From NCBI GenBank assembly GCA_026399025.1, contig JAPLRU010000073.1:1-64000 (forward strand): a stretch of 64,000 bases of DNA. The letters are read 5' to 3'. The notes beneath the pieces were generated by a model. The model was not told where the DNA came from, searched no databases, and saw nothing but the letters and a program-made list of their open reading frames with translations. The position numbers and the translations under genes are program-made. This DNA is from Methylobacter sp. (GTDB lineage Bacteria; Pseudomonadota; Gammaproteobacteria; Methylococcales; Methylomonadaceae). Positions 25,126-47,389 of the stretch are shown piece by piece (the stretch's first letter is position 1; each line of letters opens with the position of its first letter).

Positions 25126-25128
25126 AAC

Positions 25129-29412: not shown

Positions 29413-32066
29413 TGTTTTAAATCCACTAAAACGGCGCGTTTAGGTAAGCGCGTCAGCGATACAATAACGTAATTCGATTTTACGGCGATAATTTCGGCAG
29501 GAACCCGCGTTTTAGGCGGGTTAATAATGTTGCCGCTCACCAAATTCACCGCAAATAACGCTACTTCGTTCGGCGCGCCGGCGTAGCCGTCATAAGGCAA
29601 TTTGATAAACAATTTTTCGTTGCCGAGCGAACAAATCAGCTCATCGTTTAAACAGCGCGATTGAAAATAAAACACCGGACTTGAAAGCTCGCCTTGCGGT
29701 AACTTGCCGATTCTTTTATTGCCTGGAAACACAAAACGCGTCCAATCGGAGGCGATAACGTCAAAACGATAATTCGACAAAATATCTTTATTGGCATTGG
29801 TATAATTCGCGGCAAACCACATATTTTTTACGTTGTTGCCGGTCGAATTGTTTTTGAACACAAACAATTTTCGTGTCCATTGCGCGCTTAATGTCGTTTG
29901 TAAAGCTGTTTCGTCAGGTAACAATTCTTTAATAACTTCATCTCGTCCGACCACTCTAAATTCACCCGACAGCGCGTCGATTCTGTTGCTTTGTAATTGG
30001 CTGGTGAACGGATTTAATTTGGTTTCGTATAAAACATCATTGATGTTTTCGACAATTTTGCCGTCGTTCGACAGCTTGAAATACGGCATCGCTAATTTCA
30101 CCACGCCTTCTTTGATGAGTTTTGGATAGGCTAAGGTGTCGTTTAATTCGGCGACAACACGGATATTTTGTTTACCTAAAATGCCTGTCACTACCGAACT
30201 GATTGAACCGTTACTTTTTCTGTCGTGACAATCCGTGCAAGGCATCGTGTCCGCAACGGGGCGGGTGTTGTGACTGATCAAATAGTCATTGGTTTCCGTC
30301 CAAATCATTTGTGCGTTAGGTTTTTGAAAACCTGACGCTTTGAGCAAATCATCGAAACGCGCTTTTAAATCCTTCACGTCTTGATAACTTTTCGGCTCGC
30401 TGTCCACGCCATTGGTAACCGACAAACGTTCAGCGCGGGTTAAAAAACGCTGATTGGTACTGTCAATCCAGTAATAACGACTCGCCGGGTTATAGGGCAT
30501 GATGCGTGATTTTCCATCTTCACTGATACGATAACGAAACCGCGGTTTGAGCGGTTTATCTTGATCCGCAAGTTTGGTAATGTGGCAGGTCTGACACGCG
30601 ACGGCGTTGAAATGTACTTGCACCACGCGATCAAGCGTCCGTTCGATATAACCTTCCATATCGCCGCGCGTTCGCCACAGTTCACGATGAGCATCAAGAA
30701 GCGTCGCTTGTCCTGAATGCGGCAACGCAGGTTTTTCAATGCTTCCGTAAGTTGTGCCGCCGTGACAATGCTCACATGACAACGGTTTGGGCTGATTATT
30801 CAAATCCCGGCGCACATCCTCATCTGAAAAACCCGTTAAAAAATTATGGTCGGCACTTAAATCCAGCGGCGTGTTGTAATAATTTTTCGCGTGACAGGCT
30901 TCGCAGTTTTCAATCGAACGAGCCACGCCTTTTTCCGTCCACGATTTACCTTTATGAACATCGTCGCGTGGATCGACCACATTGTCTTCAACTTTCGCCG
31001 CATCGCCGAAACCATAAAAACCGCGTCTTTTTTCGCTGGTCGAATGACACAGCATACAATTTTCGCTGGCTGGAAAACGCAGCATCGGAATTTGTACGTC
31101 GCCATTGGCATTAAAGGCGGATTCGTTCCACTTCAACACGGGTTCTGCATTTGTAGGCGTTTCAAGTGTGGCTAAGGCTTGACCGTCGGCGTTAGCGGGC
31201 GACATGTTTAAAAACGCTAAAATCGCCGAATTCGCATAACGAAACCAACCGTTTTTGATAATTTGCGAGTTACGTTGGCTTTTCCAATCGCTAACGGGGC
31301 GTTTGAATTTAGACAAATCCGCGTGACAAATCAGGCAATCGGCTTCAATCACCCCACTTGCTTTCCAATCCCATTGTTCGAGTTTTTTGTTATTCCATTC
31401 GAAATAATCACCGTCTAAAAATGAAACGGCATTTTCAGGTTGCATGTCGTAACGATGTCCGGCTCTATCTTTTTCGGCAAAACCACCACCCGCATGACAT
31501 TCTTCGCAATTTTTAATCAAGCCGACTGCGCCGTAATCCAAAAAATCGGTTTCTTTTAGATTCGTTTTTTTGCTTAACCACGAAGGATTATTGTCATTTT
31601 GGCAACTGTACCCGCCGAAATAAGCGGGCGAGGTCAGTGCCGTTAAACCACGGCGCAAACCGAAATTATCGTCGCTTTCATCGCGGCCCATTTCAAAATG
31701 GTAAGCATGACCGATTTTGTCGATGTCGTGACAACCCGCCCCGCCGCCGCAACTGGTATGCGTACTGTAAGGTTTTTGGGAATCTAAAACGTGTTGGCCG
31801 TTTTCATCAAGCAATGGAATCGCGGGGTGAATACGTGGTAAATCAACGCTGTTTTCAACAATTGGATTGGTCACGACAGGCGTTTGTGTAACAGGGGGTG
31901 TTACTACAGGAGGTGTTATTACAGGCGGTGTTACTACAGGTTCGGGGTCAAAATTGTAAATAGGCGTGTAATCGGACAAATCTTCACCGTCATCGGCTAA
32001 CAAAATTGCAAGCGGAAAAAACAAAAATAGGCTTGTGAAAAAAATCTGCCAAATAACGGGGCGCAT
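29409..32066 (-). CDS. large multihaem c-type cytochrome (7 CXXCH), first gene of the cytochrome operon
   Basis: 885 residues. Signal peptide (WQIFFTSLFLFFPLAILLA), then an acidic stretch and a Pro/Val/Thr repeat linker (about 41-70). A His/Cys cluster reads CGGGAGCHDIDKIGHAYHF. CXXCH motifs: NCEECH, DCLICH, NCMLCH, NCEACH, SCEHCH, ACQTCH and PCTDCH. The C-terminal ~250 residues carry no haem motif and look beta-rich. Size, linker and position suggest an exported or surface-exposed protein. It starts the long minus-strand series, 363 bases from the divergent 979-residue cytochrome gene. Confidence 0.87.
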   Translation of the reverse strand: MRPVIWQIFFTSLFLFFPLAILLADDGEDLSDYTPIYNFDPEPVVTPPVITPPVVTPPVTQTPVVTNPIVENSVDLPRIHPAIPLLDENGQHVLDSQKPYSTHTSCGGGAGCHDIDKIGHAYHFEMGRDESDDNFGLRRGLTALTSPAYFGGYSCQNDNNPSWLSKKTNLKETDFLDYGAVGLIKNCEECHAGGGFAEKDRAGHRYDMQPENAVSFLDGDYFEWNNKKLEQWDWKASGVIEADCLICHADLSKFKRPVSDWKSQRNSQIIKNGWFRYANSAILAFLNMSPANADGQALATLETPTNAEPVLKWNESAFNANGDVQIPMLRFPASENCMLCHSTSEKRRGFYGFGDAAKVEDNVVDPRDDVHKGKSWTEKGVARSIENCEACHAKNYYNTPLDLSADHNFLTGFSDEDVRRDLNNQPKPLSCEHCHGGTTYGSIEKPALPHSGQATLLDAHRELWRTRGDMEGYIERTLDRVVQVHFNAVACQTCHITKLADQDKPLKPRFRYRISEDGKSRIMPYNPASRYYWIDSTNQRFLTRAERLSVTNGVDSEPKSYQDVKDLKARFDDLLKASGFQKPNAQMIWTETNDYLISHNTRPVADTMPCTDCHDRKSNGSISSVVTGILGKQNIRVVAELNDTLAYPKLIKEGVVKLAMPYFKLSNDGKIVENINDVLYETKLNPFTSQLQSNRIDALSGEFRVVGRDEVIKELLPDETALQTTLSAQWTRKLFVFKNNSTGNNVKNMWFAANYTNANKDILSNYRFDVIASDWTRFVFPGNKRIGKLPQGELSSPVFYFQSRCLNDELICSLGNEKLFIKLPYDGYAGAPNEVALFAVNLVSGNIINPPKTRVPAEIIAVKSNYVIVSLTRLPKRAVLVDLKQ

Positions 32067-32198
32067 TAGAATTTGTTTTTAAAAGAAAAATTTGAATGAT
32101 GAAAGCAGAATTCGCGCCAATAAAGTAAAAAACAAACTAAATAAATAGGTTATTCAGTATTTTTTGGTTTTTAACAGCACTGCTTTTGCTTGAATCGT

Positions 32199-32238
32199 GG
32201 CATATCACACAGTTTTTTAAAAAAGTATGCGATATGCC
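32199..32238. promoter_or_regulatory. 40-bp palindrome upstream of the 9-haem cytochrome gene
   Basis: Two 20-base arms, GGCATATCACACAGTTTTTT and the complement of GGCATATCGCATACTTTTTT, matching at 17 of 20 positions. An almost identical palindrome occurs at 43460-43499 ahead of the paralogous cytochrome gene. It lies in the divergent region between the minus-strand operon (from 32066) and the plus-strand gene (from 32430), so it could be an operator for both. Confidence 0.6.
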
Positions 32239-32325
32239 GCACTGTTACGAATATTATTGAATAATATTCATAATACACTGAGTTTAAATATATTTTTAAG
32301 GGGTGCAATTGTTGCTAGTTAAAAC

Positions 32326-32352
32326 CGTTGCCGGTTATCGGCAGCGTTTTTT
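32326..32352 (+). terminator. terminator-like hairpin in the leader of the 9-haem cytochrome gene
   Basis: CGTTGCCG, loop GTTAT, CGGCAGCG, then TTTTTT: an 8-bp stem with one G-U pair and a T-run. No plus-strand gene lies upstream within 2 kb. It would therefore stop transcripts in the 5' leader of the cytochrome gene and may be an attenuator. Confidence 0.5.
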
Positions 32353-32372
32353 ACCCAAAACTATTAACTAGG

Positions 32373-32402
32373 GTAACTACGGATTGAAGGCTGAGTAGTT
32401 AC
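32373..32402. repeat. short inverted repeat GTAACTAC...GTAGTTAC
   Basis: GTAACTAC and GTAGTTAC are separated by 14 bases, 27 bases before the 9-haem gene start. The same GAGTAGTTAC end occurs at 36777-36786 and 43184-43193, where it looks like an IS66-type terminal repeat. This may be an insertion-sequence scar or simply a leader hairpin. Confidence 0.4.
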
Positions 32403-32429
32403 CAACCCATTCAAAATTCAGGAGGGCTT

Positions 32430-35369
32430 ATGCCCAATAATAAAATACCGCCACGGCAAGAGCGCAGGATTGGTTTGATTGCGCTCATGCCGGTTGTGGC
32501 AACAATGGCAATCGCAGCGCCGGTTGTTCAAGCGGCAGCCAATGCGAAAGCGCCAACGTGTAAGATTCTTTCACCCAAAACGGGCATTGTGTTTAGTGCG
32601 AATCAAGATGTTTCTTTTGCCGCACAAGCGACTTTAAAAGACGCAAGCGCCAAACCTTTGAGATATGAATGGGATTTTTCGGGCGGCGTTTTTGGTGAGC
32701 TGATTCCAAACACCAATCCGCCCGCTTATAAGCGTCCCGAAGGTTTAAAAACCACGGTGCAATTCGTTCGTGATAATGCAACTTACAAAGTACATTTCAG
32801 CGCAATGGATGCACAAAATCGCCGTTGTGAATCCGTTATTGATGTTGTAGTCGGTACCTTGCCCAAAGGCTTGCCTGATATTTCAAAAATGGCGACGGAT
32901 GCGCAAAAAAGTGCGCCGAAAAAAGGCAGTGAACTCGCCGGCAAAAAAAATGACGTGGTTGTGTTGCCGTTTGAAGAATGGACATATCAAAATTGGAGCG
33001 ATATGCAATTTCGCGATAATGGCTATAGTTCGGCATCGCCCGCTGTTAATAATCTAAAAGCGTATGCGTTTAAAAAAGATCGTTTACCCGTGTTTTTAGA
33101 TGACACCGCTGTGGAATTGCGTTATTCCGCCGCCTCAAATCCGGTCGATCCAGTCGGTAAAGATTCAATCAACACTACCAGTCAAAATTACCCATTAACG
33201 GCGGATCTAATCGATGCCGTCATTCAAAAAACCGATATGTGGCAGTTGCCGCCTCCACGTCCGGATTCTGAAAAGGCAGATGGTTATTTTGCTTGTTCAT
33301 GGGCGATGACGGGTTATTGGGGAGCATACGGTTGTGGCGCCGCTCAAGGATTGCCAACGGTTGACGAAGGCTATTTCAAAGCAAAATTGGATGATGCTAC
33401 AAAAAAGGTGGCGCCTGATGATCCGAATAATCCCGAACACGGCTTGTTCATGCCTGGAAAAACGAACCCCTATGTCACAAACACGGCGCAAGCGTTTTCG
33501 CAATATCAACCGGACGCTCAAATCTTTGCCGCCAATTTTTTGCCCGTTACCGATATTGATGACAAAGGGCGCGTCAATCCCTTTCCTTTATGGCGTGTTG
33601 AAGCCGTTGATAAAGGGTCGAAAAAAGTGCTTGCCAAAACCGATGCCGTGACCGGCACAAGCAAGGATTTTCATTGCAGCGGCTGTCACGAAAAAGGCAA
33701 AATTGCCGCAAATCCAAACGCGCCTCACACAAAAGAAGCGTTTAATTCCAGTGCATGGGCTAAGTTTGCTGAAAAACAAACACCTACTCCCGCCGATAAA
33801 GTTTTGAGCAAACCGAAATTTTTCAGCGTTGCGGATTTTAAAGGCAAGGAAAACAGTTTATTTGATCAGGAATATGCGGCAGCGTTGAACTATTCGAGCA
33901 TTCATCAGTTCTACGACAAAATCTCTTTTCTCGATGACATGTTAAACGTTGATCGTGCCTTGGATGATAACGGCAAAGTCAGAAAAGACACGCCCAAACC
34001 GTGTTATGGCTGCCATGCTACGGCGATAAGTTTCAGCCCATTCAAAAATCCGTGGTGGGATGAGGAAGGCTTCAAAGTCAACGAACCTATTTACGCACCG
34101 AGTTATTCCATTGCGATGCACCGCTTTCATGGCGAATTGCAATACAACGATAAAAAAACCGATATTGTCCGTGACAAAACAGGCAAATTTGTGCGTTGGG
34201 ATTGGAAAACGAAAGGAACGAATAACTCGGATAAAAGTTTATTCCCCATTTTCGACAAACAAGGCAAACAGCGTCCGATGGAAGATAACTGTTTGAAATG
34301 TCACAGCGGGCACCGTGAACAGTTGTATCGTGACCGAATGTACACGGCCGGCGTGAGTTGTTTCGATTGTCATGGCGATATGTTGGCAATGGGTCAAGCC
34401 TTCCCTAAAAATTACCTGAGCAACAAAGCCAAACTGGGTTCAACCGAGCGTGACGATTATCGCGTGCCTTGGTATGACGAACCTGATTGCGGTTCGTGTC
34501 ATGTGGGTAACGCGAATATCGGCAAAGATAAAAAGAATGGCTTTTTCAGTGCCGGCATTATGGCAAAAGCATTTGATGCGACTGATTTATCCGCAACACC
34601 GCGCCTTGTAGATAAAGAAAATCCCGACACGCAACGATTCACTGCCGCGCCGATAGAAAACTATAAGGCGAAGTTTGAAACGGATTTTTATTACAACATC
34701 GACGAAAAAGGCGATTTCCAAACCAAAAAAGTTGATACCAAAGTCGATGCGGCATTGTTCCGTGAAGGTAAGGACAGACATGGTAACGTGGCTTGCGCGG
34801 CGTGTCATGGCGCGGCTCATGCGGTGTGGCCAAATCGTGACCCTAACGCGAATGACAATGTCGCGGCGTTGCAATTGCAAGGTCACACAGGAACGATTTT
34901 GGAATGTAATGTTTGCCACAGCGCGGATTCATTCAAAAATGAAGCCGATTTGGACGGTGGTCAATACAGTGGCGATATAACCGTTGGCATTCTCGGTGGC
35001 CCTCATAATATGCATCCGGTTAACGATCCGTATTGGTGGAAAGATTCAAAATCGCCAACCGATGAGAATGTTTTAGACGGTAAAACCTATGGTGGCTGGC
35101 ATAATAATTATGCTCAAAAAGCGGGCGCGAAAGATGAAGATCAATGCGCAGCTTGTCATGGCAATGACCACAAAGGAACTCGCTTGTCAAAAACACCTGT
35201 CGATAGAACCTTTGATTTCAGCAACTTTGATTTTGCCCGATTACAAAAAGCAGGTTTCAAAGACAAAGTGATTAAAGTTGCGGCAGGAACGGCCATTGGT
35301 TGCGATACTTGCCATAGTATTGAAACCAGTTGTGTGAATTCGCCGGCGGGTAGCGCGTGCGGCATTTAA
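32430..35369 (+). CDS. giant secreted c-type cytochrome, 9 CXXCH, PKD-like N-terminus
   Basis: 979 residues. Signal peptide ends near VVQAAA (35); a strong AGGAGG ribosome site precedes the ATG. Residues about 45-140 form a PKD/Ig-like domain (LRYEWDFSGG, VVGTLP). Then a conserved block (FLDDTAVELRYSAASNPVDP) shared with the 1252-residue paralogue is followed by CXXCH motifs HCSGCH, PCYGCH, NCLKCH, SCFDCH, DCGSCH, ACAACH, ECNVCH, QCAACH and GCDTCH. No anchor helix. Probably exported to the cell surface; role in extracellular electron transfer is inferred from the neighbouring conduit genes. Followed by a good terminator. Confidence 0.88.
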   Translation: MPNNKIPPRQERRIGLIALMPVVATMAIAAPVVQAAANAKAPTCKILSPKTGIVFSANQDVSFAAQATLKDASAKPLRYEWDFSGGVFGELIPNTNPPAYKRPEGLKTTVQFVRDNATYKVHFSAMDAQNRRCESVIDVVVGTLPKGLPDISKMATDAQKSAPKKGSELAGKKNDVVVLPFEEWTYQNWSDMQFRDNGYSSASPAVNNLKAYAFKKDRLPVFLDDTAVELRYSAASNPVDPVGKDSINTTSQNYPLTADLIDAVIQKTDMWQLPPPRPDSEKADGYFACSWAMTGYWGAYGCGAAQGLPTVDEGYFKAKLDDATKKVAPDDPNNPEHGLFMPGKTNPYVTNTAQAFSQYQPDAQIFAANFLPVTDIDDKGRVNPFPLWRVEAVDKGSKKVLAKTDAVTGTSKDFHCSGCHEKGKIAANPNAPHTKEAFNSSAWAKFAEKQTPTPADKVLSKPKFFSVADFKGKENSLFDQEYAAALNYSSIHQFYDKISFLDDMLNVDRALDDNGKVRKDTPKPCYGCHATAISFSPFKNPWWDEEGFKVNEPIYAPSYSIAMHRFHGELQYNDKKTDIVRDKTGKFVRWDWKTKGTNNSDKSLFPIFDKQGKQRPMEDNCLKCHSGHREQLYRDRMYTAGVSCFDCHGDMLAMGQAFPKNYLSNKAKLGSTERDDYRVPWYDEPDCGSCHVGNANIGKDKKNGFFSAGIMAKAFDATDLSATPRLVDKENPDTQRFTAAPIENYKAKFETDFYYNIDEKGDFQTKKVDTKVDAALFREGKDRHGNVACAACHGAAHAVWPNRDPNANDNVAALQLQGHTGTILECNVCHSADSFKNEADLDGGQYSGDITVGILGGPHNMHPVNDPYWWKDSKSPTDENVLDGKTYGGWHNNYAQKAGAKDEDQCAACHGNDHKGTRLSKTPVDRTFDFSNFDFARLQKAGFKDKVIKVAAGTAIGCDTCHSIETSCVNSPAGSACGI

Positions 35370-35686: not shown

Positions 35687-35992
35687 ATGAATTTTCAATT
35701 AGCTATTCAACCGCAAACGGAACAACGGCTAAAAAAAATATTAGCTCATAGTCAAGATATGGAAGTCTTTGCACAAAATATTATTGCCCATCAAATTTCC
35801 CAATTACAAAAAGGCATATTAAATTTGCAACTGGATTTACTGGAGTTTGAAAAAAAATATCAAATGAGTTCAGAAAGTTTTTATCAAAAATTCTCTGAGG
35901 GTATTTTAGAAGATAATGAAGATTACATGATTTGGTCAGGATTATATGAACTGTATTCTGAAAATCAGCGAAGACTTCGTGAATTAAAATGA
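35687..35992 (+). CDS. small protein upstream of TumE-like toxin (putative antitoxin)
   Basis: 101 residues, mostly helical and charged, with no motif I recognise beyond a start that resembles short DNA-binding antitoxin strands (FQLAIQPQTEQRLKKIL). It overlaps the TumE-like gene downstream by 4 bases, the usual antitoxin-toxin spacing. Role assigned from position only. Confidence 0.6.
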   Translation: MNFQLAIQPQTEQRLKKILAHSQDMEVFAQNIIAHQISQLQKGILNLQLDLLEFEKKYQMSSESFYQKFSEGILEDNEDYMIWSGLYELYSENQRRLRELK

Positions 35993-36369
35993 TTGAGGCG
36001 TATTTTATTCAGCTTGAGCAGGTATTACAGGAGTTTCCAAACAGTCGATCTTTATCCCTGACCAAGAAAATCTATAACTTTAATCAGGGGTATATCAGTG
36101 GTTCAGTTGTTTTTGAAAATAACTGCCGCCTGGATTTTATTGAGGTCAAAAATACCGATACTAAGCCGAAGATAAAATATCGCTACCATTATATGGACGA
36201 GCAGCAGGTGATGGTTTTTCGTTATGATAATGCTCCCCATCATGTTGAAGTTGATACTTTTCCACATCATAAACATGAGGGCGGTGATATTAAATCCTGT
36301 GTTGAGCCAAACCTTTATGATGTGCTTATGGAAATTGCACAGGGACAGCGCGATAAGGTGCGCATATAA
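35989..36369 (+). CDS. TumE-family (DUF6516-like) putative toxin
   Basis: 126 residues. The pattern LDFIEVKNTDTKPKIKYRYHYMD, then VFRYDNAPHH, PHHKHEGG and a C-terminal helix resembles the TumE/DUF6516 toxin family. The His-rich PHHVEVDTFPHHKHE stretch is characteristic. It pairs with the gene overlapping its start. Identification is by memory of the family pattern, so moderate confidence. Confidence 0.6.
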   Translation: MIEAYFIQLEQVLQEFPNSRSLSLTKKIYNFNQGYISGSVVFENNCRLDFIEVKNTDTKPKIKYRYHYMDEQQVMVFRYDNAPHHVEVDTFPHHKHEGGDIKSCVEPNLYDVLMEIAQGQRDKVRI

Positions 36370-36378
36370 CGCGATAGC

Positions 36379-36455
36379 CCATAGGAGGCGCGACGCAGGA
36401 GGCGCATCATTCGCGAACGATGTCGGCACATCTATAACTTTTACGTATCTTATGG
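36379..36455. repeat. ~80-bp dispersed palindromic repeat, copy A
   Basis: Begins CCATAGGAGGCGC and ends with CTTATGG. Contains GGAGGCGCATCATTCGCGAA and TATAACTTTTACG. It matches copy B at 43255-43344 over nearly its full length, in the same orientation; copy A lacks about a dozen central bases. Confidence 0.7.
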
Positions 36456-36498
36456 ACTTGCCCCCCGTTATTTTTTTGATAACAACCCCGCCGAACGC

Positions 36499-36635
36499 CT
36501 AGGAGGTTGTCCGAGAACTAACGTTTAACTAATTCGCCTGCTGTTTGCCTACTATATATGGCATATTGAAATATTTAAAAACACTATATATTGAAGTCAA
36601 CTGACAGGCATGTTAGTTCTCGGACAGCCTCCTAG
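36499..36635. mobile_element. MITE-like element with 22-bp inverted repeats and CTAG duplication
   Basis: Arms at 36501-36522 and 36612-36633 are complementary with one mismatch (core GTCCGAGAACTAAC). The tetramer CTAG occurs at both outer edges (36499-36502 and 36632-36635), consistent with a target duplication. The ~90-base centre is AT-rich and codes for nothing. A YTAR target fits IS5- or IS701-type transposases; none is encoded here. Confidence 0.7.
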
Positions 36636-36874: not shown

Positions 36875-38194
36875 ATGAATGCTTCAAAATCTCAATCATT
36901 AGGTGTGTTTTCGCTGTGGGCAATTGGTGTAGGTTTAGTTATTTCAGGCGAATCGTTTGGCTGGAACATTGGCTGGGGAATCATAGGAGCTAAATCATTT
37001 TTCGTTCCTGTTTTGATTGCAGCAACGCTCTATTTTTGTTTGGTTAAAAACTTAATTGAATTAACCTGTGTTTATCCAAATTCAGAAGGGCCACAAGCGT
37101 TTGCTGAGCTTGCTTATGGGAAAATAGTGGGTAACTTCATTTCGATTGTTTTATTAGTTGAATTTCTATTTGCTATTCCCGCCGTTGCCAATGCCATTAG
37201 CGAATACTTAGGCTTTTTGGTTGGTAGTCATCATTTTGATTTGTGGATTGCCACAGCATTTTTACTCGTCTTTTGCATCATTAATTATTTTCACATTTCA
37301 TTGAAAATAAAGTTCGTTATTATATTAACTATACTTGCTATTCTCGAATTAAATATTTTTTCGTTGTCTATCCTGCCAAAATTTAGTTTACAAAACTTCA
37401 TGGTAGGCAGAAATGAAAATCTAAGTGCGCAAACTATTCTTCTCGCTTTACCTTATGCGGTATGGATGTTTTTAGCTATAGAAGGTTTGGCTCTCTTTAC
37501 AAAGTATGTTGATTATAATGAATTTCGTGAAAAAATTTCTGCTGGATATATTTATTCAATACTAACGTTATTTATATTTTGCAGCGTTATTTTAATGTTG
37601 GCAGGCGGTGGTATTATATGGAATGAAGAAGTTTGGAATTTTATCACATCAAACAATCATCCTATGCCCGCTATCTTAGCAACCGTACTAGGTCAAGACA
37701 GTATTATTACAAGAGTTTTTACTTTTCTTGGTTTATTTGGGTTGATTGCTTCATTTCAAGGTGTTGTTAGTGTGGCAATCATTCAATTTGAAAACATTAT
37801 CTCCGACTATATTACCGATACATCAACAAAAAGAATTTTATCTACCTTATTGGTATTGATTGTTGGTTTGGTATCAGTCTGGAGTAGTACAACAGGAATG
37901 CTAATAGAGTTTTCTGTTTTTGCAGCGGTATCTTTATATTTTTGTGTTGGTTTATCATTATATAAACTCAGAACAGACAAAGTTGATATTAATAATAAAA
38001 TATCGAATTTTAATTATCGGCATTCAGATTTTTCTGATATTCAGTCTAATATCTATGTATTTATCTCTTGTCTAATTTCTTTAATCTGTGTGTTTGCCTT
38101 TTCATATTCACAAACAAAATCGTTTTTCATATTTTCCGCACTCAGTATTTCCTACTTTGTGTATTCGTTTTATTTCAAAAAACTTAAAGTCTAA
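36875..38194 (+). CDS. APC-family amino acid permease/exchanger
   Basis: 439 residues, 12 predicted membrane helices. Start LGVFSLWAIGVGLVISGESFGWN and NSEGPQAFAELAYG are typical of the APC superfamily, the group with ethanolamine/amino-acid permeases and amino-acid/amine antiporters. Ribosome site AAGG lies about 10 bases before the ATG. It is the first gene of an AT-rich cassette; the decarboxylase starts 5 bases after its stop. The pairing suggests uptake of an amino acid and export of the amine made from it, as in GadC/GadB or tyrosine decarboxylase loci. Confidence 0.82.
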   Translation: MNASKSQSLGVFSLWAIGVGLVISGESFGWNIGWGIIGAKSFFVPVLIAATLYFCLVKNLIELTCVYPNSEGPQAFAELAYGKIVGNFISIVLLVEFLFAIPAVANAISEYLGFLVGSHHFDLWIATAFLLVFCIINYFHISLKIKFVIILTILAILELNIFSLSILPKFSLQNFMVGRNENLSAQTILLALPYAVWMFLAIEGLALFTKYVDYNEFREKISAGYIYSILTLFIFCSVILMLAGGGIIWNEEVWNFITSNNHPMPAILATVLGQDSIITRVFTFLGLFGLIASFQGVVSVAIIQFENIISDYITDTSTKRILSTLLVLIVGLVSVWSSTTGMLIEFSVFAAVSLYFCVGLSLYKLRTDKVDINNKISNFNYRHSDFSDIQSNIYVFISCLISLICVFAFSYSQTKSFFIFSALSISYFVYSFYFKKLKV

Positions 38195-38199
38195 TTGCC

Positions 38200-39726
38200 A
38201 TGCAAGAAGTAAAATCAAAACTACTAAAACAGCTAGAACAATCAATAAAACAGCTAGAACAGCTAAAATTAACTGTAGAAAAATCAGAACAGCCAGAACA
38301 GTTAGAAGAGCAGGTAGGAAGTATATATATGTTAGTAGATACGATTTATAACTACCGCAATAAATTAGACTCATTTCCCGTATGGACTGAGCCTACCGAA
38401 GAAATGAAACAAAAAATCAATGAACCAGTATCAGAAACTAAGACTAATCTGGACATAATTTATGATGACTACAAAAAATATGTTGAGCGATTTAATCAGG
38501 GGAATAATCATCGACAATATTATGCTTGGATTCAAGGAGGCGGTAGTTTATTAGGAGCTGTGGCTGATTTTTTAGCTTCTCTACTAAATCCAAATGTTGG
38601 CATTGGCAATCATTCAGCTAGATATATAGATGCCCAAGTCGTTGAATGGAGTAAAACGATGTTCAATTTTCCAAAAACGAGTTCTGGCTTATTAGTAAGC
38701 GGTAGCTCAATGGCAAATGTAACGGCAATTATTACCGCAATAGATTATTATAAAAAAATACATGGTTGTAAGAAAAAATTAAGGATTTATGCGTCTAAAG
38801 AAACACATAAATGTATTCATAAAGCATTGCACGCAATCAATGGTGATATTAACTGTCTTCAAGAGATTAAAACAAATACTAGATTTGAAATTGATTGTAA
38901 TTTATTAGAGAAAAAAATTAATTCAGATATTGAAGCTGGATATACACCGTTTCTGTTAATAGGTAATTTTGGCACAGTCAATACAGGGGCAATCGACCCG
39001 TTAGATAAACTTATTAATATAAAAAATAAATATAAGTTGTGGTTGCATATTGATGGTGCTTATGGCGCACCCGCTTTACTAACTAATCGATTTAAAAATG
39101 ATTTTGAATTATTTAGCAATGTAGATAGTTTGGCTTTCGATTTTCATAAATTATTTAATATAAATTATGCCGCTGGATGTGTTTTAATACAAAAACATAC
39201 TATTTTAAGTGATACTTTTACTGTTGAAAATCAGCATTATTTAATGAGAGATTTAGGTGGTATAGCGGGAGGACTGCCTACAACTGACTCATTAGGGTTT
39301 GAGCTATCAAGAGATTTTAATGCTTTAAAAATATGGATGATTTTTAAATACAAAGGACTATCGTCTATTATTGAAATGATTGACAGCAGAATAGATTTAG
39401 CAAGGTATTTAGAGCAACAAATAGAAAAAAATTATTCCTCAGCTCTTAAACTTATTTCACCTGTAGCTCCTGTGATGTTAAGCATTGTTTGTTTTAAATT
39501 TTTTAAAACTGGCTATTCACCACTTCAACTAAATGATTTGAATAAAAATATTGTGCTAGAAATTCAAAAAAATGGTAGAGCTGTACCTTCACAGACTGTT
39601 ATTAATAAAAATGACCGAATGATAAGAATAAGCATAGTACACTACAGAACAACAAAAAACGATATAGATGATTTGTTAAATGAAATTATCGAAACAGGCA
39701 ACAAATTAATTAAAAAAATCAGATAA
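38200..39726 (+). CDS. PLP-dependent (aromatic/acidic) amino acid decarboxylase
   Basis: 508 residues, group II decarboxylase fold. The N-terminal ~35 residues form a Gln/Glu/Leu coiled-coil repeat (LLKQLEQSIKQLEQLK). The catalytic domain shows GLLVSGSSMAN, KETHKCIHKALH, GTVNTGAIDPL, the cofactor Asp in LHIDGAYGAP, and the Schiff-base Lys317 in DFHKLFN. Whether it prefers aromatic amino acids, glutamate or another substrate cannot be told. It is followed 13 bases later by a kinase-like gene, an unusual partner for a decarboxylase. Confidence 0.88.
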   Translation: MQEVKSKLLKQLEQSIKQLEQLKLTVEKSEQPEQLEEQVGSIYMLVDTIYNYRNKLDSFPVWTEPTEEMKQKINEPVSETKTNLDIIYDDYKKYVERFNQGNNHRQYYAWIQGGGSLLGAVADFLASLLNPNVGIGNHSARYIDAQVVEWSKTMFNFPKTSSGLLVSGSSMANVTAIITAIDYYKKIHGCKKKLRIYASKETHKCIHKALHAINGDINCLQEIKTNTRFEIDCNLLEKKINSDIEAGYTPFLLIGNFGTVNTGAIDPLDKLINIKNKYKLWLHIDGAYGAPALLTNRFKNDFELFSNVDSLAFDFHKLFNINYAAGCVLIQKHTILSDTFTVENQHYLMRDLGGIAGGLPTTDSLGFELSRDFNALKIWMIFKYKGLSSIIEMIDSRIDLARYLEQQIEKNYSSALKLISPVAPVMLSIVCFKFFKTGYSPLQLNDLNKNIVLEIQKNGRAVPSQTVINKNDRMIRISIVHYRTTKNDIDDLLNEIIETGNKLIKKIR

Positions 39727-39739
39727 AAAAGGAACTTTT

Positions 39740-41269
39740 ATGGCACGCGACAACATTTTACATAGAGAACTTCCAATAAATGAAAAGATAAATCGCGCTA
39801 CTAGATTTAGGGAACAAATCGAGATAATAAATAAAATAAGTCCAATTAAAGAATATTTTTATCTTGCAGAAGTAAGTTACGGTTATGATGCTAAAGACCA
39901 TGTATATTATCTTGATTATCCATACCCTAATATTGAACAAGGAAAAATTATAGATATTATAAATGCAGCAACTAGAGGGGAATTACCAAATCATTCTCCT
40001 TTAGAAAATAAGGCGTTATATGAAGATTTAGATATTGAAATTAGTGATAAATTTGATGCGTATGGATATGTGTTATATGAGTTTATTCCTAATAATAAGA
40101 CAACTCCAATAATTACCAATATCAAAACAAATATTGAAACCATTGATGAAGATATGCTTCGCAAATATTTTTTTGTGATATATCACTGCACTGAATTAGA
40201 TTACAATTTAGAAGAGCTTTTTTTAGAAGAACCAAAATTAGATAAAAACGTACTCACCAAAGAAAAAAAATATTTACTGTATTTTAATTCAAAGAATTTA
40301 ATTACATTAAAAGATGATGAATCAATACCAGAAAGAATAACAACTGCTTTTATAAGTACGGATTCTATCAAAGAACTATCAGATATATATCAATATATAG
40401 ATACAGATAAAATAAAATCCATCTATGATATTGTTATAAAGCAATTAAGATATGTTGCTACTCATTCCAGATTATACTATGAAGTACAAAGTGCTTTATG
40501 TAAATCAGAAATTGAAAGAAATCAAGCTGAAATTGAAAGAAATCAAGTTATATTAAGCTACAATGTATTACATACTTTAAAAAACCGAGTTGGAATCATG
40601 CGACAAGAAATCAATGGATTATATGAATCGTATAATCATTGTCCTGCTTCTGATGAAACTAGACACAAAATAGGTTCTAGTAAAAATGAAGGTCATCATC
40701 TCGAAAAACTTACTGAATTGTCATACCTTGCTTATTTTTCGAGTGTTCATGATAAAACAGAAATTTATAATGAAAAATTTGAAAAGGGTCTTAAATTTAC
40801 AACGACAGATGTATTTAATTTTTCTGATTCAATAAAAACCATTTTCGATATTATTAACTATAACAATAAAAATAGTGACTATAAGTCAGTATTAAACCTC
40901 GCGTCTGAAACGTGTTTCCTTACCATTGAACCTTATTTTAAATTAGAAAATAATAAAGATGTACGGTTGTTTGATGGTGTTTATGAGGCAATTCTGTTTG
41001 AAATAATACATAACTTTTTTGTCCATAGTGGTGATGATAATGGTGTAAGCACGTTATCTATTAAGAAGAAAAATCATGATTTAGTTTTTATTAATAAATC
41101 AGAAAGTAATGACGATTTAATCGATTGCGATAAAATAACAGGCGGACTGGCATTTATTTTTAATCTTCTGAAAAACACAGAATCAGGGGCTGTTTATCAT
41201 AAAATCATTAATGGTTATTATGAAATCACATTGAAATTAGAAGGCTTAGTATGGCAAGCAATAAAATAA
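39740..41269 (+). CDS. degenerate soluble histidine-kinase-like protein
   Basis: 509 residues, no membrane helix. Residues about 1-255 are an unrecognised domain. A coiled coil with a direct repeat (SEIERNQAEIERNQ) leads to an H-box-like VLHTLKNRVGIMRQEI with His278. The ATPase part has an N-box-like EIIHNFFVHSG (Asn425) and a G2-like GGLAFIFNLL, but no clear DxGxG G1 box (only LVFINKSESND). It may bind ATP poorly or act as a phosphotransfer or scaffold protein. The stop overlaps the receiver gene by 19 bases. Very AT-rich: 14 of 60 bases are G or C in 40081-40140. Confidence 0.7.
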   Translation: MARDNILHRELPINEKINRATRFREQIEIINKISPIKEYFYLAEVSYGYDAKDHVYYLDYPYPNIEQGKIIDIINAATRGELPNHSPLENKALYEDLDIEISDKFDAYGYVLYEFIPNNKTTPIITNIKTNIETIDEDMLRKYFFVIYHCTELDYNLEELFLEEPKLDKNVLTKEKKYLLYFNSKNLITLKDDESIPERITTAFISTDSIKELSDIYQYIDTDKIKSIYDIVIKQLRYVATHSRLYYEVQSALCKSEIERNQAEIERNQVILSYNVLHTLKNRVGIMRQEINGLYESYNHCPASDETRHKIGSSKNEGHHLEKLTELSYLAYFSSVHDKTEIYNEKFEKGLKFTTTDVFNFSDSIKTIFDIINYNNKNSDYKSVLNLASETCFLTIEPYFKLENNKDVRLFDGVYEAILFEIIHNFFVHSGDDNGVSTLSIKKKNHDLVFINKSESNDDLIDCDKITGGLAFIFNLLKNTESGAVYHKIINGYYEITLKLEGLVWQAIK

Positions 41270-42651
41270 ATATCTTGTTAATAGAGGATGAAGCGGCGTT
41301 TTGCTTTTCTCGTTATCATAATGATGTTGTTATCAATTCTGAACAATACAAAAAGTATTTTCAGCTTTATTGGCTACAAACCCCAGCCGAAGCGGTATGG
41401 TTATTAGATGCTTACGATGAACTGAGTATTAAAGCACCGCAAGATATTCTTGCATTGGGCTTGCCGCCTGAGATTCTAATCTTTGATTACAGATTATCTT
41501 CGCCAAAAACTAAATTAAAATCACCTAAGCAAGCTTCCAACATCGTAGAACAATTACGAACTTATCTAATAGATAAAGGCATTAGTGTTTTAGCAATTGA
41601 TGAATACAAACAAAGCGTTCCCTCCGTGGGAATGCGGCAAGGGAAAGACAAAATGGGGTGTTATATTGGTGGAACATTGGCTCGCGCTTTTTCAGGTTAT
41701 CCCTGTGCTGCCATACCAACAACTGCTAAGGGCAAAGATGACGTTAAAATTGATGGTGATGATGCAGATTTTTTTGAATGGATAAATAGAAAATATTTAA
41801 AGAATGCTTTTGATGATAAACCAAGACAAACACCTAATATGGAAGGATTCATTAATTATGGGATTAAAATATTTAGAGAAAAGGTAATTGATTTAATCAA
41901 TTCTGGTTTAATTAGAATCCGATTATACGAGCTTGAATTATTATCCAGAAATCCAACGGATGCTAAATTATTGTATCTTTCTATTAGCTCTAATTTAGGG
42001 TATAGAGAAATTCCAATTGCAGGGCTTTTTATTGATACCAGTGAAGACCAAAATGCCTATGAAGAAACGGCTAAAGAATGGGCTATTCAAGTATTAGAAA
42101 GTATGTTTAAAAATGATGACTTTCTCAAAGCAAAAGAAATAGCGAAGATTTATTTTGAATCATTTTATACGCAATCTAAAATTTCAAATGCTCGTCAATT
42201 AAGAGAGAATTTCTCCAATTTAGCATCACACTTTCCTGAGGAAGATATAAATAGTCTCACTCAACAAGAAAAAGCTGATTTATTAGCACTATGCAATCGT
42301 TTTAATGTTAATTTAGGTGATGTTACTAAAAATCCAACAAGCGTAAAAATACATACTGACAGTTTACCCGTATGGAAACAATATCAAAAAATAAACGATT
42401 CAATTGCTAGATGGGTTGTATTGATGCTAATAGTCAGGGCTGCGCAATATGCTCAGCAATACCGATGTAACGAAACTATTTCAGCTAATGACGTACATAA
42501 ACTACTAAATCCTTTACCTAATAATTTACTGATTGATGAAACAAATAACACAGCTTGTACAGCAGTTGGTCGATTAAAATTAAGCGTTGATAATATTTTA
42601 AAGCAAGAACAAAAAAAAAAGGGCTTATTAGCGGTGAAGGGTATTTTCTGA
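41251..42651 (+). CDS. receiver-domain protein with large unknown C-terminal domain
   Basis: 466 residues in the zero frame. A receiver-like start NILLIEDEAAF (acids at 12-14) is followed by LIFDYRLS with Asp79 as probable phospho-acceptor. A large insertion separates it from GGTLARAFSGYP. Residues about 180-440 form an unrecognised helical domain. At 42611-42620 a run of ten A contains the slippery heptamer A_AAA_AAG in register. The zero frame ends after 9 more codons, whereas the -1 frame continues for 31 codons (GEGYFLKLYADEIGF...) to a TAA at 42714-42716 and looks like genuine protein. Probably the output partner of the kinase-like gene it overlaps. Confidence 0.75.
   Translation: MASNKINILLIEDEAAFCFSRYHNDVVINSEQYKKYFQLYWLQTPAEAVWLLDAYDELSIKAPQDILALGLPPEILIFDYRLSSPKTKLKSPKQASNIVEQLRTYLIDKGISVLAIDEYKQSVPSVGMRQGKDKMGCYIGGTLARAFSGYPCAAIPTTAKGKDDVKIDGDDADFFEWINRKYLKNAFDDKPRQTPNMEGFINYGIKIFREKVIDLINSGLIRIRLYELELLSRNPTDAKLLYLSISSNLGYREIPIAGLFIDTSEDQNAYEETAKEWAIQVLESMFKNDDFLKAKEIAKIYFESFYTQSKISNARQLRENFSNLASHFPEEDINSLTQQEKADLLALCNRFNVNLGDVTKNPTSVKIHTDSLPVWKQYQKINDSIARWVVLMLIVRAAQYAQQYRCNETISANDVHKLLNPLPNNLLIDETNNTACTAVGRLKLSVDNILKQEQKKKGLLAVKGIF
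42615..42621 (+). other. candidate -1 frameshift site A_AAA_AAG
   Basis: The zero-frame codons AAA AAG, preceded by A, match the dnaX-type slippery heptamer exactly and lie within an A10 tract also suited to polymerase slippage. Slipping back by one base joins the 466-residue protein to a 31-codon tail ending at 42716. A base-count error in the homopolymer would look the same. Confidence 0.5.
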
Positions 42652-42729
42652 AATTGTACGCCGATGAAATTGGTTTTAATGAAAACCAACCCGACTGGCT
42701 TAAATATGCTCCGTAATAAAATCTCTAAG

Positions 42730-42762
42730 AAAAAAGCCCAGTTTGTTGCTGGGCTTTTCTTT
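42730..42762. terminator. bidirectional intrinsic terminator
   Basis: AAAAGCCCAG, loop TTTGTTG, CTGGGCTTTT, with A-rich and T-rich flanks on both sides. It ends the plus-strand cassette and the small minus-strand gene at 42775. Confidence 0.85.
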
Positions 42763-42774
42763 GTTTACTAATCA

Positions 42775-42957
42775 CTATTTTGCTAGACCTTTATCAAAAC
42801 AACGGCAGGTAATACCAAAGCCAAGTTTTTCACGGTTTTTGGCAATAATACATTTCTTCGCACCATAACAGGGACGGTGAACTTGAAGCGAGACGAAGTC
42901 ACACATTGCCTTGCTTGTTTCGATGTTTTGACTATTTGTTGAAATAACAGCGTTCAT
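42775..42957 (-). CDS. small Cys-containing hypothetical protein
   Basis: 60 residues, four Cys (FVSLQVHRPCYGAKKC, ITCRCFDKG and one nearer the start). A strong AGGAG site about 7 bases before the ATG and the shared terminator at its end support a real gene. No family recognised. The 78-bp tandem repeat lies just upstream of it. Confidence 0.55.
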   Translation of the reverse strand: MNAVISTNSQNIETSKAMCDFVSLQVHRPCYGAKKCIIAKNREKLGFGITCRCFDKGLAK

Positions 42958-43005
42958 TTGATTCTCCTCATGACTTTTACAGATAAATACACACTTTCAG
43001 GAAAG

Positions 43006-43183
43006 TGTTGCGATTGTTGCATATCTGTCAGCACTGCTATTGACATGAGCTGACAATAGGAGGTGTATCAACTCGAACGAAAATGTTGCGATTGTTGCAT
43101 ATCTGTCAGCACTGCTGTTGACATGAGCTGACAATAGGAGGTGTATCAATTCGAACGAAAATGTTGCGATTGTTACATATCTG
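43006..43183. repeat. 78-bp tandem repeat, 2.3 copies
   Basis: Units begin TGTTGCGATTGTTGCATATC at 43006, 43084 and 43162 (the last truncated by the IS66-like end at 43184). Each full unit contains the hairpin arms TGTCAGC and GCTGACA and an AGGAGGTGT stretch resembling a ribosome site. Because 78 is a multiple of 3, a minus-strand frame runs through the repeats, but I do not regard it as a gene. Confidence 0.85.
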
Positions 43184-43198: not shown

Positions 43199-43254
43199 AA
43201 AACTTCAACTATCCTTAATGCTATGAAGACCTTAAGCCGCCCAAGCCAAGCAGC

Positions 43255-43344
43255 CCATAGGATGCGCCGACGACAGGAGGCGCATCATTCGCGAACGATG
43301 CGCTTCGTACCTCGCACATCCTATAACTTTTGCGCATCTTATGG
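43255..43344. repeat. ~90-bp dispersed palindromic repeat, copy B
   Basis: Begins CCATAGGATGCGCCGACGAC and ends GCGCATCTTATGG, so the ends are near-perfect inverted repeats (13 bases). Same family and orientation as copy A at 36379-36455. The two copies bracket the AT-rich cassette. Confidence 0.75.
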
Positions 43345-43406
43345 CCTTGGGGTTCGGCGTTCCCGGTGTGTGTAGCGTGTCTCGTCTTAGTTGGTAGCAG
43401 TAAAAA

Positions 43407-43630: not shown

Positions 43631-46600
43631 ATGCTCAATCAAAAAATACCACCGCCATTCCGGCAAAAGTGCAGGCTGGGACTGATTACGCTCACGCTAG
43701 TTATGGCGATAATGAATTTATCCAGTGCTCAAGCTGCGGCAGTTCCGATAATGGCGACGGCAAAATATGATGCGACCGAAGACAAAGTTGTTGTTGCCGG
43801 GAAAATACTTGGCGCTAATGCTAAAGATTCAAAAGTGACGGCTTATGACGCCGCCACGAATGTCATTCTTTACACGGTTAATGCCGATAGCAAAAACAGT
43901 TTCACTATGAAATTGCTCAGCGCAACGTCTAGGCCGTGTTTAGTGCGTATTGAGGTAACCAATCCAAAAGATAATTCACAAATGCAGGTATTATTGCCGG
44001 TGAGCGTTGCGGGTAAATCTTGTTCGACTGTTCCTGCGTGTGCGATTACTAAGCCCGCAATGGACACTGAAATTACCGAAGGCAGTTCAATTTCTTTTGA
44101 ATCGTCTCCTGTAAAAGGTGAATCGTTATGGTCTATTAATGATGGTTCGGCGGATGTGCCGCAAGCATCGGTAAATCATCAATTCACCGATGCGGGTAAA
44201 TATCGCGTAACGTTAAAAGTTACCGACGGCAAAAACCAATGCTTAGACGACGTAACGGTTTCCGTGATTCCACCGAAAGGCACGAACCCAAACGGCAAAG
44301 TTAAAGAACAAGTTGCGCCTGCTTTAGGTGGAGCAATGCCGAAGGAAAAAGCCGGCAAAGTAACTAATGATGAAGATGCGCTGGTGGTTTTACCGTATGA
44401 AGATATGGGAATGCAAGGCGGCAGCCAAATTCATTTGCCTTTCAATGCGATGATTAACTACAACGCATTGAATGCCCAAGTCGTTAAAAAAGTGCCCCAT
44501 AAGCCGATATTACTCGATGACTCCAGTGTGGATCTGGCTTATTCAGCCGCGTCCAATGCCAAAGACCCGGCCGGTAAAGGTTCCATCAACTCAACCAGTC
44601 AAAACTTGTTCGACAAAAACCAAGTCGGCGCCAACTACGATCCGATAGCCAGTGAAATCGATCCTGCAACAGGCAAACCCTTAAAAAACGTGTTTATCGA
44701 TGGGCAAGATTATCATCAGGCTAAAATTCGTAAATCGGAACAATGGGACAGAATTCATCAGCCCTTGGCTAAAGAACAAGGCATTAATGAAATAGGGATG
44801 GCGTACCCCGATCAGCAAAACCGTTTTATGCCGGCATTCGCACCCGCGTTACCCGATCAAGGCGTTAGAGGGAATGTAGACAAAGCGCTGGGAATGCGTG
44901 AAATGCCGGGTATTGCTAATCCGTATGTAAAGAACGATCCAAAAAAATTCGATTACAGTCCCGAAAAACAAATTTTTGCAGCACAATTTATTCCAGTAAG
45001 CGACATCGACGATCAGGGCCGCACAAATCCTTATCCGTTAATGCGTGTGGAAGCAAAAGTTGGCAATAAAACGGTTGCCAAAACCGATGCCGTTTATACA
45101 ACCGCTTCGGAAACACGTTGCCGCGAATGTCACTCCGCGGGAAAAATTGCAGGCGATGAAGACGTTTGGCGGATGCCGGTTACAACAGATGAATTAGTCG
45201 CACCGGACGGAAAAAGCCCAGGCGCGGCAACGGGAGCAGGTAGTTTCGATCCGGGTGTCGACCCAACAAAAGCGTGGCCGCCGGCTGTTCATAATAAATT
45301 CGACGACAAAATTGCGGACAATCCAACGTTCACAAATTTAGCCATGGAAATGAACGATCCTGCCAACAAAAACTATATTCCGCGCGATCAAAACAATTTG
45401 CGAAAAGACCGCGTAAAAGAATCGCGTTGGGTAAAAGTCGACGCGGCTGGAAAACCTACGTCACAAACCAGTCCGACAAAACCTGCTAACGCGGATGCCG
45501 CTTGGAAATTGCAAGTCCGTTTAAATTTCCGTGCGCCTGAAGAAGAAGGCGGCTCATCGTGGGTTGAACAAGAAAAAGCAGCGTTATTCAACACCCTAGT
45601 CATGCACGATTACATGGTGTATTACGGACCGACACCCGCAACCGGAGCAAAATGGCCGGCAAGTTATTCATCTCAGCTTGCAGACGGTTATGCAGACGAT
45701 AAAGGTAAATCTCGCGCTCAACCGATGTACTTCTGTGCCGGACATCATCAAAGCGCGCTTAAATTTGACGTAGGTATTGTGCCGCGTGCGTTCCAAACCA
45801 ACCGTTCGGATTATTCAAAAGCCTTCCATGCTTTCCACGGCAAAATGCAAGTGTATAAAGCGGACATAAGCGCGGCAGTTAGCGCGGACGGTTTAGCGCA
45901 TAAAAAAGGCGATCTGATTCGTGACGAACGCGGACATCCTAAAATGCTGGGCGGGCGCGGTTGGGATTCCCAACATAACGATGATAATGGCGTGCCGTTA
46001 AAACCCGATGCGGACGGTAATTTAACGGTTCCAACCACGCAGGTTTATGACGCGGCCAAAAACAACTGGCGACCCGATTTATTCCCGGCGGATAAAAATG
46101 GCGAGCCATTGGTTAAAGTGGGTGAAAAAGTAGCTACCGAAGATAACTGTAATAAATGTCATACCGGCGCGACTGAAAAAAGCTACCGCGACATTCATCA
46201 CACGGCAGGTTTGAAATGCGACAGTTGTCATGGCGATATGCTTGCGGTTGGCAACGTTTATCCAAACCAAGGTTATGACGCGAACTTAACGGGCGGCGGC
46301 GCTTACACGGGAGACTCCGTTAATTTCCGTAGACCGTGGTTGGATGAACCGAATTGCGGCTCCTGTCACGTTGGCGATGGCAACAAAGCCAATAACGGCA
46401 AAGGTGAAAACTTCAGCGCAGGCGTTTTACGTCAAGCATGGAAAGCGGGCGATAAAACGGGCTTTAGTCGTAATCCAAGCAATGCGCGTTTTGCCGTCAT
46501 GCCAACCAAAGAAAATCGTCTTGAGCCGGTAACTGCGCCGGACACAACGAAAACGCCGACGATTACACTGGTTGAGGATAAAAGCAAGCCTATTGATCCC

Positions 46601-47389
46601 GTTACCGGAAAATATCCAATGATGGAACTGGCAACCTATCCGTCTGTAACGAAATATGTCGGCGTACCTGTATCGCAAGCGTTGTATCGCAAAAGCGCCG
46701 ATGTACATGGCAGCGGAGCGAATGGCTCGTTGAATTGTTCAACCTGTCACGGCGGTTCACACGCAATCTGGCCGAACCAAAATCCGAATGCTAACGACAA
46801 CCAAACTGCAAAACAGTTGCAAGGTTACGATGGCAACATTGCGGAATGCTCGGTTTGTCATGTCAAGGACGATTTCAAAACGGGCTTGGTCGCTACCGAT
46901 GGCGGCACAAGCGGTTTAGGCGTTGGGCAAGGCATACGCGATGGAACGGTGGTTGATTCCAGCAGTCCAAAAGCCTTCTTGGCAGGTCCTCACGGTATTC
47001 ACCCCGTTGGCGATAAATCGTGGTATTACCATGCGGATGGCGCGGCAAGAAATACCGCGAATGATGCAAACCGTAAATTCAACGGCGGTTGGCATAATGA
47101 CTTTGCGAAAAAACCAGGCCCCGATGGCGAAGACCAATGCGCGGCGTGCCACGGAGCGGATCACAAAGGCACGCGCTTGTCGAAAACCCTTGTTGACCGG
47201 ACCTTGACAGATGCAAAAGGCGCATCTATTAAAGTGGTGAAAGGTCAAATTATCGGTTGTGATTTGTGTCACACACTGGATAAAAGCTTCATAGATTCAC
47301 CCAAAGGCATAGCGCAAGATCACGCGCCGCCTCAACCTGAAACGTTTGTGATTAAAGCCGCGCCGACAACGGGAGGTATGGGGCACTAA
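43631..47389 (+). CDS. giant secreted c-type cytochrome, 8 CXXCH plus one degenerate CXXHH
   Basis: 1252 residues, paralogue of the 979-residue protein. Good AAGGAAAGG ribosome site. Signal peptide ends near SSAQAAA (36). Two Ig/PKD-like domains (about 38-130 and 138-222) precede the shared block ILLDDSSVDLAYSAASNAKDP. CXXCH motifs: RCRECH, NCNKCH, KCDSCH, NCGSCH, NCSTCH, ECSVCH, QCAACH and GCDLCH. Where the paralogue has CYGCH, this protein has FCAGHH, so the second attachment Cys is gone. Insertions of 60-100 residues between motifs explain the extra length. Predicted surface electron carrier. Confidence 0.88.
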   Translation: MLNQKIPPPFRQKCRLGLITLTLVMAIMNLSSAQAAAVPIMATAKYDATEDKVVVAGKILGANAKDSKVTAYDAATNVILYTVNADSKNSFTMKLLSATSRPCLVRIEVTNPKDNSQMQVLLPVSVAGKSCSTVPACAITKPAMDTEITEGSSISFESSPVKGESLWSINDGSADVPQASVNHQFTDAGKYRVTLKVTDGKNQCLDDVTVSVIPPKGTNPNGKVKEQVAPALGGAMPKEKAGKVTNDEDALVVLPYEDMGMQGGSQIHLPFNAMINYNALNAQVVKKVPHKPILLDDSSVDLAYSAASNAKDPAGKGSINSTSQNLFDKNQVGANYDPIASEIDPATGKPLKNVFIDGQDYHQAKIRKSEQWDRIHQPLAKEQGINEIGMAYPDQQNRFMPAFAPALPDQGVRGNVDKALGMREMPGIANPYVKNDPKKFDYSPEKQIFAAQFIPVSDIDDQGRTNPYPLMRVEAKVGNKTVAKTDAVYTTASETRCRECHSAGKIAGDEDVWRMPVTTDELVAPDGKSPGAATGAGSFDPGVDPTKAWPPAVHNKFDDKIADNPTFTNLAMEMNDPANKNYIPRDQNNLRKDRVKESRWVKVDAAGKPTSQTSPTKPANADAAWKLQVRLNFRAPEEEGGSSWVEQEKAALFNTLVMHDYMVYYGPTPATGAKWPASYSSQLADGYADDKGKSRAQPMYFCAGHHQSALKFDVGIVPRAFQTNRSDYSKAFHAFHGKMQVYKADISAAVSADGLAHKKGDLIRDERGHPKMLGGRGWDSQHNDDNGVPLKPDADGNLTVPTTQVYDAAKNNWRPDLFPADKNGEPLVKVGEKVATEDNCNKCHTGATEKSYRDIHHTAGLKCDSCHGDMLAVGNVYPNQGYDANLTGGGAYTGDSVNFRRPWLDEPNCGSCHVGDGNKANNGKGENFSAGVLRQAWKAGDKTGFSRNPSNARFAVMPTKENRLEPVTAPDTTKTPTITLVEDKSKPIDPVTGKYPMMELATYPSVTKYVGVPVSQALYRKSADVHGSGANGSLNCSTCHGGSHAIWPNQNPNANDNQTAKQLQGYDGNIAECSVCHVKDDFKTGLVATDGGTSGLGVGQGIRDGTVVDSSSPKAFLAGPHGIHPVGDKSWYYHADGAARNTANDANRKFNGGWHNDFAKKPGPDGEDQCAACHGADHKGTRLSKTLVDRTLTDAKGASIKVVKGQIIGCDLCHTLDKSFIDSPKGIAQDHAPPQPETFVIKAAPTTGGMGH

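Follow-up and report, generated by a model that had tools for sequence, protein, structure and literature searches.

The stretch of DNA considered here (the window: 64,000 nucleotides, positions 1 to 64,000 of contig JAPLRU010000073.1 in GenBank assembly GCA_026399025.1) belongs to Methylobacter sp., a gammaproteobacterium of the family Methylomonadaceae, and carries at 36875-42716 a cassette of four plus-strand genes, P1 to P4, in which genes for a transporter and an amino-acid decarboxylase are followed by genes for two proteins with motifs like those of a signalling pair. The genes, and the features attached to their 3' end, are the following.

36875-38194, plus strand: P1, 439 amino acids (aa), APC-superfamily transporter.
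38200-39726, plus strand: P2, 508 aa, group II pyridoxal phosphate (PLP)-dependent amino-acid decarboxylase.
39740-41269, plus strand: P3, 509 aa, soluble kinase-like protein with no family match of weight.
41251-42651, plus strand: P4, 466 aa as sequenced, with a receiver-like N-terminus (Asp79) and about 300 aa without a recognisable domain.
42611-42620, plus strand: run of ten A, which with the next G holds an in-frame A AAA AAG heptamer (42615-42621).
42621-42716, plus strand: apparent coding continuation of P4 in the -1 frame, 31 codons and then TAA at 42714-42716.
42732-42758, plus strand: terminator-like hairpin, 11 pairs and then a T-rich tail, 3' of the operon.

The genes are separated by 5 bases (P1-P2) and 13 bases (P2-P3) and overlap by 19 bases (P3/P4) in the list of open reading frames (ORFs), which agrees to the base with the four tightly spaced plus-strand genes of a preliminary description made without database searches. 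This packing is operon-like and suggests a single transcript. Six terminator-like sites are found in the region and, since shuffled sequences give 3.8 such sites on average, the hairpin at 42732-42758 is informative mainly through its position; the plus-strand sites before 42732 lie inside P1 and P3 only, with none in the intergenic gaps.

The cassette (5,842 bp) has a GC content of 30.9%, against 39.9-49.4% (mean 45.8%) in non-overlapping stretches of the same length elsewhere in the window, so that the AT-rich character first noted with respect to the flanks holds. Sixty-one other pieces of the same assembly, a non-random sample consisting of kinase, receiver or paralogue loci, have a mean GC of 51.5% (standard deviation 2.8, lowest 44.0). 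The low GC is common to all four genes (27-33%, with 0.18-0.27 at third codon positions, GC3), while GC3 is 0.44-0.54 in seven other window genes measured, and 0.21 and 0.40 in two small genes just upstream of the cassette (35687-36369). The P1-P4 stretch was thus probably acquired horizontally.

P1 matches PF13520 (29.2 bits, cut-off 27) and PF00324 (25.1 bits, cut-off 24.6), which places the proposed amino-acid permease in the APC superfamily; judged by its family, the protein would move an amine, by exchange or export. Its best NCBIfam model is the ethanolamine permease Eat (TIGR00908), yet the score of 211.8 bits is below the cut-off of 381.75, and the cassette is without eutBC. Relatives of P1 are present on 44 plasmid records, the best 30 of which show 23-33% identity and include 21 named eat; of three P1-like plasmid neighbourhoods read, two contain eutBC and one an aminotransferase-family gene. 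The cassette resembles the GadBC, TyrDC-TyrP and HdcA-HdcP operons in placing an APC-superfamily transporter tightly beside a PLP decarboxylase, but differs from them in that its transporter is nearest to the ethanolamine permease model and in having two signalling-like genes downstream in the same orientation.

P2 matches PF00282 with 165.7 bits (cut-off 27, E 1.7e-48) and keeps the PLP lysine K317, in agreement with its first description as a PLP decarboxylase. The nearest solved structure is PDB 4obu (188 bits over residues 34-503; record title Pyridoxal-dependent decarboxylase domain protein), which we take to be the tryptophan decarboxylase of Ruminococcus gnavus, and with which the catalytic residues of P2 align. 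The next structures, several aromatic decarboxylases and an aldehyde synthase, score at most 127 bits, and the solved serine decarboxylase 8jg7 gives 23.5 bits, far below 4obu. H203, D285, K317 and Y347 have catalytic roles, and the loop tyrosine is required for decarboxylation in aromatic amino-acid decarboxylases. H203, D285, H316 and K317 are present in all 39 aligned rows (P2 included) and Y347 in 38 of the 39, and Y347 of P2 aligns with the loop Tyr of 4obu and 6eew. By these likenesses P2 is predicted to decarboxylate an amino acid, with an aromatic substrate as the best guess. In a tree of the 39 rows, 32 of the 33 sequences from P2's own taxonomic family form a clade that contains the paralogous decarboxylase of its genome and leaves P2 outside. 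That paralogue (contig C111, locus L035, 5117-7911) has a neighbour that looks by eye like an ATP-grasp protein, a setting unlike the cassette. A scan of genome contigs with P2 returned only one relative, archaeal and 24% identical.

P3 carries H-, N- and G2-like motifs in that order (H278 in NVLHTLKNR, N425 in EIIHN and GG468-469 in ITGGLAFIF), and has INKSESND where D-x-G-x-G would be expected, consistent with the earlier remark on the missing G1 box; His278, like Asp79 of P4, is in the position first given. No membrane segment is predicted in P3 or P4, and neither has a match of weight in Pfam, NCBIfam, PADLOC or PHROGs. The best matches to solved structures have E values of 0.97 and 0.19, respectively, and structure predictions made without an alignment (mean predicted local distance difference test scores of 32.7 for P3 and 36.9 for P4) are in neither case usable for a fold search. 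Marginal Pfam and NCBIfam matches, the best of them NF004954 for P3 (E 0.027) and MtxA_C for a piece of P4 (E 0.0028, spanning 20 residues), were taken as chance, and a phage-defence reading of the pair was set aside, PADLOC having given no match in a scan of the four cassette proteins only.

For P4, a profile comparison of residues 1-165 aligns Asp79 with the receiver acceptor at a probability of 10%, with 2 of 100 shuffles equalling the score (the corresponding figure for the C-terminal control is 14 of 100), which weakly supports a putative receiver domain; the protein has no recognisable DNA-binding domain. A counterpart by description is TCS-14 of Streptococcus mutans (SMU.45/SMU.46), presented in the available portion of PMC3353171 as a strain-variable pair of unknown function, in which a soluble kinase-like protein is joined by a regulator that has no known output domain; its kinase has a recognisable HATPase_c domain, whereas P3 has none. 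According to the same portion (PMC3353171), HPK10 kinases such as ComD share with P3 the lack of an H-box proline and of a D-box, but have a Tyr two residues after the His, where P3 has Leu, and ComD is membrane-bound, unlike P3 as predicted.

The 3' end of P4 differs from that first proposed. The preliminary description had placed it at 42716 (497 aa), whereas the zero frame stops at 42651 (466 aa), and 42716 can be reached only through a -1 change in the ten-A run, with a product of 488 aa. The stretch 42621-42716 seems to be genuine coding sequence of P4 in a shifted frame, which would explain the earlier coordinate. Its codon log-odds in the -1 frame is 10.72, against a mean of 9.45 (standard deviation 3.46) for in-frame windows, which are themselves the training data, the model having been trained on the four cassette genes; none of 199 out-of-frame and 631 noncoding stop-free windows (the windows being overlapping ones) reaches 10.72, and the zero frame scores -2.17 there. 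The frame change makes P4 shorter by 22 residues and alters nine.

The zero-frame codons AAA AAA AAG at 42613-42621 contain a dnaX-type heptamer in register, and no other A run on the plus strand of the window is as long as the ten-A run; T runs of 10, 12 and 15 bases occur elsewhere. In the available part of PMC4066793, A_AA.A_AA.G is among the most shift-prone E. coli motifs when a stimulator is present, and shifts at about 0.3% when none is. Programmed ribosomal frameshifting is not the preferred explanation for P4, because the folding of the sequence downstream of the heptamer is no better than that of shuffles (z -0.14 and 0.19) and no Shine-Dalgarno-like stretch is seen by eye just upstream. 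In the part of PMC3711429 available, the expected explanation for orphan single frameshifted genes is a gene overlap, a sequencing error or an indel, and 3'-end frameshifts are held there to be indels more often than those elsewhere. We rank an indel or assembly error first and slippage second, although the three cannot be told apart.

Relatives of P3 and P4 were sought in overlapping genome samples, all within one phylum. As single queries, P4 has no match in 200 other genomes of the family and P3 none in 368 other genomes of the class; one match of P4 among 397 other genomes of the phylum (genome G860, E 0.004, 74 residues) was rejected after reading the 769-aa protein, by eye presumably a TPR-type glycosyltransferase. 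Joined queries gave no P3 in 236 other genomes of the family, no P4 in 366 others of the class and neither in 381 others of the phylum, scoring being confined to the two or three top candidates of each genome, so that a weakly matching P3 or P4 may have escaped. Plasmids, phages and viral contigs yielded no relative of either protein, the viral contig scans being insensitive in that they require exact short peptides; five viral-contig matches of a hand-made P4 motif show no similarity to P4 beyond 12-14 residues and were discarded.

Among 237 genomes of the family, the cassette's own included, 71 have P2-like matches, some of them low-scoring; P1-like genes occur in 28 of the 366 other genomes sampled from the class. 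Five plasmid neighbourhoods of P2-like genes, out of 311 matching records, show no adjoining P1-type permease in gene tables that are incomplete. A conserved four-gene system, for which co-occurrence of the four genes in other genomes had been proposed as the check, is not supported: the sampled genomes hold no credible P3 or P4 match, and the P1-like and P2-like genes are not neighbours at the loci retrieved. A literature search on such gene sets and on Detocs-type systems, judged from titles and the starts of abstracts and with most subscription journals outside its coverage, found no account of the gene set, as the preliminary description had anticipated. The gene set is unusual and remains a singleton, with no second example and with the kinase call at motif level.

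Repeats and other small features surround the cassette.

36376-36460, plus strand: left-hand copy of the direct repeat, about 90 bp long, that brackets the cassette, 83% identical to 43252-43349.
43252-43349, plus strand: right copy of the direct repeat, pairing with 36376-36460.
36499-36635, no strand assigned: element resembling a miniature inverted-repeat transposable element, 137 bp, with 24-bp terminal inverted repeats that are 96% complementary.
35687-36369, strand not given: TumA/TumE-like toxin-antitoxin pair (PF20126), adjoining the cassette upstream.

At a threshold of E 0.001 or better, the direct repeat has only two further matches in the assembly, both short and partial (45 and 36 bp), and the 137-bp element has no second copy there. 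The second gene of the toxin-antitoxin pair matches PF20126 above cut-off, the NCBIfam TumA and TumE matches being below theirs; the first gene shares the AT-richness of the cassette. A tandem 78-bp unit occupies 43001-43183 in two copies and a partial third, and a 60-codon minus-strand ORF at 42775-42957, directed towards the end of the operon, encodes five cysteines and matches neither a Pfam nor an NCBIfam model. On both sides of the cassette stand several large genes for multihaem c-type cytochromes (18992-35369 and 43631-47389). For the one that flanks the cassette on the left, 22 other genomes of the genus hold no full-length match, and partial matches occur in one of the 22; the neighbourhood is therefore particular to this genome, and no empty insertion site can be read.

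We favour, with a probability of about 0.4, the interpretation that P1-P4 form an operon that was acquired horizontally, produces an amine and includes a divergent cytosolic signalling pair of its own. Its support comes from the packing of the genes, the hairpin, the shared low GC, the direct repeats and the position of P2 outside the family clade, together with the retained catalytic residues of P2, the order of the motifs in P3 and the register of Asp79 in P4. In such an operon, P2 would decarboxylate an amino acid, perhaps an aromatic one, and P1 would exchange or export the resulting amine. P3, located in the cytosol and resembling a histidine kinase, though a very divergent one, would respond to some state of the cell interior and autophosphorylate at His278, the phosphate would pass to Asp79 of P4, and the C-terminal part of P4 would serve as the output that adjusts the amine module. 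The regulatory role of the pair is suggested by motifs and gene order.

A number of results weigh against this interpretation. The H/N/G2-like pattern is present in 21 of 52 kinase-like ORFs and in none of 2000 shuffled P3 sequences, and of 440 other ORFs of at least 250 residues five have it, all at loci covering P3 itself, but it was designed after P3 had been seen. P3 is absent from the 75 PF02518 (HATPase_c) matches of its own genome at E 10, as is P4 from the 135 PF00072 matches, and profiles built from kinases and receivers of that genome score P3 and P4 below zero bits. When P3 was compared, profile to profile, with 46 kinase rows, the score of its C-terminal part was reached by 68 of 100 shuffles, that of the whole protein by 89 of 100 and that of the N-terminal control by 59 of 100. 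With these profile tests negative, it is the motif order that makes P3 a candidate kinase. The soluble kinase-like and receiver-like pair that was first proposed is supported as such, with no family match of weight, and the profiles lend a P3 kinase domain no support.

The amine module has its own difficulties. P2 scores best in NCBIfam with the model for diaminobutyrate decarboxylase, not with an aromatic one, and reaches 107 bits there (cut-off 900); no NCBIfam decarboxylase model reaches its cut-off; the branch of P2 in the tree is very long and its position unsure. NCBIfam, which we take to include the usual amine-exchanger models, offers P1 no transporter model, of an amine exchanger or otherwise, with an E value of 1 or lower apart from that for ethanolamine permease, where P1 stays below the cut-off. 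None of 33 P2-like loci shows a P1-like partner in the DNA retrieved, which included several kb of flank for 12 of them (in one case truncated by the end of the contig) and at most about 1.5 kb for the others; nor is there a P2-like partner within about 1.5 kb at any of 19 P1-like loci. The P1-P2 pair itself, like the four-gene set, has been seen once, with no second locus.

The strongest rival, which we consider a real possibility though short of probable, is that two unrelated modules, P1-P2 for an amine and P3-P4 for strain-variable signalling, perhaps in a stress or phage response, were joined by chance in an insertion hot spot. The P1-like and P2-like genes fetched elsewhere come without P3-P4, the site looks unstable (with its toxin-antitoxin pair, inverted-repeat element, direct repeats and left cytochrome gene without full-length match in the genus), and TCS-14 of S. 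mutans is, as described in the available portion of PMC3353171, a precedent for a strain-variable soluble kinase/regulator pair. The shared composition of the four genes and the 13-base P2-P3 gap without terminator-like site argue instead for a single unit, points that are offset by the adjacency of P1 and P2 being seen nowhere else either.

It is unlikely, in our estimate, that the cassette is a decaying foreign fragment, with P3 and P4 as fast-evolving leftovers and the frame change of P4 as an early damaging mutation. Such decay would agree with the position of the change in a ten-A run, with the lack of relatives to show constraint and with the expectations for orphan and 3'-end frameshifts in the available part of PMC3711429. 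It agrees less well with four long open frames, with the kept catalytic residues of P2 and with a -1 stretch that scores like in-frame windows, and P4 loses only 22 residues, with nine altered.

We hold it to be very unlikely that the amine is ethanolamine, made from serine by P2 and moved by P1 as an Eat-like permease: the nearest model of P1 and the eutBC genes in two of the three P1-like plasmid neighbourhoods point that way, but P2 is far from the serine decarboxylase 8jg7 (23.5 bits, against 188 bits for 4obu) and P1 is far under the TIGR00908 cut-off. More doubtful still is that P3 and P4 are the first members of a two-component-like family not captured by existing kinase and receiver models, and that they control amine production from inside their own operon, with short and long forms of P4 arising by slippage on the ten-A run to give a switchable output end.

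If the favoured interpretation holds and the pair governs the amine module, the cassette would be an amine-production operon with its own cytosolic phosphorelay, made of proteins that have diverged beyond the reach of current kinase and receiver models, and two-component counts based on those models would leave some members out. Should the pair have nothing to do with the amine genes, P3 and P4 would still be two proteins without known relatives, whose folds are worth solving.

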